A stretch of 59,901 bases of DNA from Erysipelotrichaceae bacterium. Lineage in GTDB: Bacteria; Bacillota_I; Bacilli_A; Erysipelotrichales; Erysipelotrichaceae. The notes under the pieces were generated by a model. The model worked only from the letters and a program-made list of their open reading frames with translations, ran no database searches and was not told where the DNA came from. The position numbers and the translations under genes are program-made. Of the stretch, positions 43,395 through 43,595 are shown piece by piece. Each line of letters starts with the position of its first letter. Within the stretch, counting starts at the first letter, position 1. Location of the stretch: assembly GCA_030526485.1 (NCBI GenBank), contig JAUNCS010000007.1, forward strand, positions 1 through 59,901, in the 5' to 3' direction.

Positions 43395-43418
43395 TAAAAA
43401 AACACTAAAAAATTAGTG
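43395..43418 (-). terminator. Expression-platform terminator of the c-di-GMP riboswitch
   Basis: Minus-strand hairpin CACTAA / TTAGTG with a 4-base loop, followed by seven T. Upstream, ACTGGC can pair with GCCAGT of the aptamer, which gives a possible alternative fold. Confidence 0.8.
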
Positions 43419-43437
43419 CCAGTAAGTCTCAAAAAAT

Positions 43438-43514
43438 TGGGGCAACTGGCTGCCATACTTAATTTCAGGCCCTATAGCTTTGCGTCATATTCTTTCGAAT
43501 ACTTTGCTAAATGA
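43438..43514 (-). ncRNA. c-di-GMP-I (GEMM-I) riboswitch aptamer
   Basis: The minus strand matches the GEMM-I aptamer along its length. In order: AGCAAAG, hairpin TATTCGAAAGAATA with its GAAA tetraloop, then the hallmark TGACGCAAAGCTA and AGGGCCTGAAA, then the second arm TATGGCAGCC and GTTGCC. The tetraloop hairpin followed by ACGCAAAGC is the same as in the Vibrio cholerae Vc2 aptamer apart from stem pairs. It lies between its own promoter and a terminator, 140 bases before a hybrid kinase gene. Confidence 0.92.
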
Positions 43515-43528
43515 ATTTGTACTTAAAA

Positions 43529-43558
43529 ATTATATAAGTAATTCTAAGAATTATGCAA
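43529..43558 (-). promoter_or_regulatory. Promoter of the riboswitch-kinase transcript
   Basis: TTGCAT (43553-43558) and TATAAT (43529-43534), 18 bases apart. An AATTCTTAGAATT palindrome lies in the spacer. Confidence 0.75.
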
Positions 43559-43573
43559 TTCTTTTGACCAGTT

Positions 43574-43592
43574 AAAAAGGGACAAAAGTCCC
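43574..43592 (-). terminator. Terminator after the 579-aa hybrid kinase gene
   Basis: Stem GGGAC / GTCCC with a TTTT loop, then TTTTT on the minus strand. It separates this operon from the riboswitch promoter. Confidence 0.82.
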
Positions 43593-43595
43593 CTG

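Follow-up and report, generated by a model that had tools for sequence, protein, structure and literature searches.

A GEMM-I riboswitch with a terminator ahead of a hybrid histidine kinase gene, and related riboswitch-kinase pairs

An RNA element of the GEMM-I class lies in the 5' leader of a hybrid histidine kinase gene, called HK2 here, within a 59,901-nucleotide stretch of DNA from a gut-type bacterium that we refer to as the window. The overall explanation that fits our results best, and that we hold with moderate confidence, is a riboswitch that terminates transcription, controls the single gene HK2, acts as an OFF switch and uses c-di-GMP as its ligand. The riboswitch class is real, known and ordinary; its target set is unusual, in that such aptamers precede four of the kinase genes of a single genome as well as related kinases of distant bacteria. 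Our literature search, which left most subscription papers outside its reach, found no paper describing an association of GEMM riboswitches with histidine kinases. CckA and SgmT also tie c-di-GMP to a histidine kinase, but these proteins bind the ligand directly (PMC7288161, PMC3509222), whereas here the mRNA would bind the ligand and set the amount of kinase. If kinase abundance is indeed controlled by riboswitches, whole sensor sets could be placed under one second messenger.

The aptamer and its target gene

An earlier note, made by reading the sequence alone, had described a GEMM-I aptamer at this site, and the bases that it named, checked one by one, are all at the positions it gave. The covariance-model search it proposed, run window-wide with Rfam, returned a match to the full length of RF01051 (model positions 1-87) at 43518-43438 on the minus strand, with a score of 61.7 bits (gathering score, 35 bits) and an E-value of 1.1e-9. 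Other Rfam families scored only at chance level at the aptamer site. In an alignment of 13 related aptamers, five from this genome and eight from Clostridia genomes, two-sided (compensatory) changes occur in 10 of 17 pairs of P2 and P3, standard pairs make up 97.7% of cells over the 17 pairs, and none of 500 shuffles reached the covariation score; the pairing scheme was taken from Rfam and the same sequences, so that the covariation confirms an already known fold. The GAAA loop on P2 is invariant in this alignment, and the leader carries an expression platform between the aptamer and the ORF (Table 1). We regard the element as almost certainly a genuine GEMM-I aptamer.

That the aptamer is decaying and without function is very improbable. 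Its J1/2 region departs from the consensus twice (U at Vc2-18 and A at Vc2-20), and the kinase gene of the sister locus on contig C22 is interrupted by an in-frame stop, both of which would suit decay. However, the stems are compensated, the GAAA loop is intact, the bases equivalent to A47 and C92 are retained in the Rfam alignment, and about half of the aptamers collected have U at position 18.

Table 1. Coordinates of features at the HK2 locus and their basis
Feature	Position	Strand	Basis
Candidate promoter: TTGCAT (43558-43553), 18-nt spacer, TATAAT (43534-43529)	43529..43558	-	Sequence
Putative 5' strand of a short P1 helix, CAAATT, complementary to AATTT (43438-43434)	43514..43519	-	Complementarity
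GEMM-I (c-di-GMP-I, RF01051) aptamer	43438..43518	-	Rfam score; covariation in 13 sequences
Aptamer parts: GAAA tetraloop on P2; P3 of GG/CC and GCC/GGC plus AGCT/AGTT	43438..43518	-	
Ligand-selectivity base, A, equivalent of Vc2 G20	43508	-	Rfam alignment column 11, adjoining the first P2 pair on its 5' side
GCCAGT: P3 3' strand within the aptamer, antiterminator strand once free	43445..43450	-	Sequence, folding
ACTGGC: partner of GCCAGT; the pairing occupies the first base of the terminator stem	43418..43423	-	Sequence, folding
Intrinsic terminator: CACTAA-TTTT-TTAGTG (43418-43403), then seven T (43402-43396)	43396..43418	-	Folding
HK2, target gene, hybrid histidine kinase, 598 aa	41583..43379	-	Pfam: HisKA, HATPase_c, Response_reg
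Terminator-like hairpin after HK1, AGGGGACTTTTGTCCCT then TTTT	43578..43594	-	Separates HK1 from the riboswitch unit
HK1, upstream paralogue without riboswitch, 579 aa	43596..45335	-	Sequence, Pfam

The 598-residue hybrid kinase reported downstream of the aptamer is likewise present as described, with its ATG 16 nt past the last T of the terminator. HK2 has a HisKA domain with an H-box, a HATPase_c domain and a C-terminal receiver with its phospho-accepting Asp (62.6, 92.8 and 92.1 bits, respectively; motifs SHDIRTP and LMDIQMP), the parts that define a hybrid histidine kinase. Its membrane part, of about five segments, matches no Pfam family and no recognised sensor family, no Hpt domain was matched in the protein, and no relay partner was identified. 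We infer that through HK2 the riboswitch would link a second messenger to a phosphorelay.

HK1 and HK2 are 44% identical over 558 residues. HK1 starts 9 nt past the rpe stop codon, in line with priA, rsmB-like, rlmN, PP2C and PASTA-kinase genes, and appears to be read together with the priA-rlmN-PASTA kinase-rpe gene group. Given this similarity, the adjacency of HK1 to rpe and the terminator-like hairpin that HK1 has of its own, HK2 seems to have arisen from HK1 by tandem duplication and to be controlled separately, by the riboswitch. Another hybrid kinase, encoded at 40717-38609, matches dCache weakly. Between 38609 and 52787 of the window, the priA-rsmB-rlmN-PP2C-PASTA kinase-rpe gene group is followed by an acyltransferase and three hybrid kinases.

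Terminator, antiterminator and direction of switching

A promoter ahead of the aptamer is plausible. The hexamers proposed in the earlier note are where it placed them and the -10 is exact, but only 3 of 6 positions of the -35 fit the consensus, and the candidate is absent from the list produced by our promoter scan, in which promoter-like matches were no commoner than in shuffled sequence. The terminator hairpin with seven T and the alternative pairing of GCCAGT with ACTGGC, both noticed at the first reading, were confirmed, and terminator-type control of HK2 by the riboswitch is very likely.

Folding of the 112-nt nascent RNA shows that, when free, it prefers the GCCAGT:ACTGGC hairpin, which excludes the P3 helix of the aptamer. 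The best free fold has -20.6 kcal/mol, compared with -14.0 kcal/mol when P3 is locked, although such energies take in neither ligand nor kinetics and cannot prove the sign of the switch. With the aptamer locked, the terminator has 6 bp or more, and the probability of its closing pair is 0.999, as opposed to 0.61 in the free RNA. Folded alone, the terminator has -4.2 kcal/mol with 6 bp and -1.6 kcal/mol with the 5 bp that remain in the alternative fold. The GCCAGT:ACTGGC duplex is stronger than in shuffled sequences (z -2.4, p 0.02), and the corresponding antiterminator pairing at the aptamer on contig C43 gives p 0.03. As a feature statistically supported across all loci, this pairing was set aside: over 99 units the signal is weak (mean z only -0.53, with p<0.05 in 14%), and at most other loci it does not reach significance by itself.

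When a cyclic dinucleotide is bound, P3 would keep GCCAGT, the full terminator would form and the kinase would not be made. When the ligand is absent, GCCAGT would instead pair with ACTGGC, the terminator stem would be reduced to 5 bp and transcription would continue. The earlier note left the sign undecided; the folding model points to a probable OFF switch, because locking the aptamer makes the terminator more probable and because no strand of the aptamer takes part in the terminator. We predict a modest effect, of about 2.6 kcal/mol, since a terminator hairpin of 5 bp persists in the unbound fold. Cd1 of Clostridioides difficile, a c-di-GMP-I riboswitch with the same fold and GAAA tetraloop, has a published OFF design in which the terminator can coexist with the aptamer and the antiterminator breaks the aptamer (PMC9262584), and the arrangement in the window is alike. 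Unlike Cd1 and c-di-GMP-I, the window RNA has A, not G, at the selectivity position, and its target is a hybrid histidine kinase rather than flagellar, pilus, surface or c-di-GMP enzyme genes.

GEMM-I ON switches are also known, namely Vc2 and pilM (PMC12564702, PMC9262584), and the terminator described here is weak, as might suit a bound aptamer that permits read-through, so that kinase abundance would rise with c-di-GMP. We consider an ON switch unlikely, in view of the two properties of the terminator on which the OFF reading relies. In pilM the terminator uses an aptamer strand (PMC9262584), whereas all five terminators that follow GEMM-I aptamers in this genome, including that of the window, begin 3-21 nt past the aptamer and share no strand with it.

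Selectivity base and candidate ligands

The earlier note called the element a c-di-GMP riboswitch. Its assignment to GEMM-I stands, but c-di-GMP as the ligand is not established, because the selectivity base, which that note passed over, is A20, as in cGAMP riboswitches. Known cGAMP riboswitches have A at Vc2-20 (A14 in 4YAZ numbering), and a G20A mutant of Vc2 binds cGAMP (PMC6274999, PMC7288161). Mutational work indicates that the G20-equivalent position is a selectivity factor, not a hard filter, and that cGAMP riboswitches are able to bind c-di-GMP (PMC9262584).

With the positions of Vc2-20, A47 and C92 mapped as in PMC6274999 and PMC7288161, the A at 43508 keeps the window aptamer out of the c-di-GMP-specific G20 subclass, and the combination of this A with retained A47 and C92 equivalents is that of GEMM-Ib. 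A cGAMP synthase in the same genome, which supports but does not strictly define GEMM-Ib, was not found in the draft, which is 97.8% complete. The Geobacter GEMM-Ib (3',3'-cGAMP) riboswitches Gm0970, pilM and Gs1761 have the A at Vc2-20, the fold and the A47 and C92 equivalents in common with the window aptamer; in contrast to them, no Hypr GGDEF or SMODS cyclase was found in the genome of the window RNA. Judged from the sequence, A20 argues against pure c-di-GMP specificity of the window aptamer. Position 18 of J1/2 was rejected as a second specificity signal because either A or U often occurs at that position.

A profile search of the genome, which the earlier note had suggested for GGDEF and EAL proteins, gave 13 GGDEF, 2 EAL and 3 HD_5 matches, none of them on the contig of the window (C36). 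The earlier observation that the window has no diguanylate cyclase or EAL/HD-GYP gene holds locally, as we saw no c-di-GMP enzyme among the scanned window genes. Nine GGDEF domains of the genome are intact, and all nine carry the canonical Asp, which recognises guanine. The Hypr signature in GGDEF domains is Ser (PMC6456294), and no such Ser is found at the GHxxG[D/S] position in the GGDEF domains of this genome. Among the pattern-caught GGDEF domains of this genome and of eight others with A20 aptamers, for which only 30 GGDEF loci were sampled, there were 32 with D, one with N and none with Ser. The genome also has no match to a SMODS cyclase.

As the genome has nine canonical diguanylate cyclases but no recognised cGAMP synthase, c-di-GMP or dual sensing is likelier, and on sequence grounds the ligand is probably c-di-GMP in the main, with A20 perhaps making its binding weaker or less selective. 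Within the genome, the base at Vc2-20 is A in the aptamers of the window and of contig C22, and G in those of contigs C27, C43 and C56. The first two might thus be 3',3'-cGAMP (GEMM-Ib) or dual-ligand switches that answer a different dinucleotide than the three G20 copies. The known cGAMP aptamers and the Vc2 mutant cited above speak for this alternative, as does the confinement of A20, which occurs in 20 of 145 collected aptamers, to the GCCAGTT subtype (20/101 versus 0/44). The Hypr and SMODS searches speak against it, and we consider it rather improbable. Whether A20 determines the choice of ligand or only affinity, the mixture of A20 and G20 in one genome is a natural test of this point. 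In genus g8 of the same family, most GEMM-I aptamers (L093, L106, L117, L118 and L119) have A20 and lie ahead of secreted-type proteins or GGDEF genes.

Riboswitch-kinase pairs in this and other genomes

The genome, which from its gene content we take to be that of a low-GC Bacillota, is a draft of 1.95 Mb in 72 contigs. It contains five RF01051 aptamers, four of which are ahead of hybrid kinases: besides that of the window, those of C27 and C22 precede SBP_bac_3 hybrid kinases and that of C56 precedes another hybrid kinase, while the fifth (C43) is ahead of a GGDEF protein. With 29 HisKA domains in the genome and about 1850 genes assumed, the chance of finding four of five aptamers at kinases is ~3e-7, although cassette copying would make these events dependent. 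If all five act as OFF switches, high c-di-GMP would silence one GGDEF protein together with a group of hybrid kinases. The C22 kinase frame is split by a single in-frame stop at about 7240-7242 of L024, reflecting either decay or sequencing error. The C56 riboswitch-kinase cluster is followed by an ORF whose N-terminus resembles that of a type IV pilin (GFTLAELLIVVSII; L026, 9162-9998).

The four pairs could stem from a riboswitch-kinase cassette that was copied within genomes while sensor domains were exchanged, in which case they represent one evolutionary event and not four independent recruitments. Identity among the kinase cores is about 44-73%, the aptamers are alike, and the genome has tandem kinase arrays; however, the sensor parts differ (membrane-only, SBP_bac_3 and others), and homologous riboswitch-kinase pairs exist in Clostridia genomes. 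We give this origin a chance slightly short of even, and it is compatible with the best explanation of how the switch works.

Aptamers of this class were found in 41 of 273 genomes of the same family and in 2 of 36 in the genus. Outside the genome of the window, none of 84 family units has a kinase; of the genes in these units, 8 encode c-di-GMP enzymes and the rest other proteins, many of which have N-terminal secretion signals. A Clostridia sample, drawn from best-scoring matches with one unit per genome in nearly all cases, likewise had a kinase after the aptamer in 0 of 57 units. By comparison, genomes chosen for relatives of the HK2 kinase had one in 18 of 50 units, spread over eight genomes (Fisher p 1.6e-7 versus the Clostridia sample), but these genomes were picked for kinases, not riboswitches, and are probably rich in hybrid kinases, which may explain part of the excess. 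Downstream domains in this survey were called by single-sequence searches on ORFs chosen for their length, so the counts could be a few too high or too low. Pairing with a riboswitch was ruled out as a general trait of this kinase family, as 18 further closest-relative kinase loci have no Rfam match beside them. In genus g57 of the family (L065, L066, L068, L071, L072 and L074), a single secreted-type protein gene is preceded by three or four tandem GEMM-I aptamers.

Two Clostridia genomes, G273 and G278, encode full-length relatives of the C27 kinase (56.5% over 943 aa and 55.5% over 920 aa). Each relative has a GEMM-I aptamer, with a small ORF of about 72 aa between aptamer and kinase, and two examples of this ORF show weak HTH_17/HTH_59 matches. 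This riboswitch-HTH-kinase module is kept across three genomes, and such conservation is the best evidence, from sequence comparison, that riboswitch control of such kinases may be selected and not accidental. A more speculative and, in our estimate, unlikely extension is that some gut Bacillota have a cyclic-dinucleotide riboswitch regulon that sets the levels of many hybrid kinases, in which G20 and A20 types within one genome differ in ligand preference or threshold, with the A20 type sensing either cGAMP or both dinucleotides. A small ORF of this kind also follows the aptamer on contig C24 of G273 and contig C127 of G277. An ORF of about 72 aa between aptamer and hybrid kinase thus occurs at five loci in four genomes: L023 (G000 C27, the genome of the window), L276 (G273 C12), L267 (G273 C24), L264 (G277 C127) and L302 (G278 C49).
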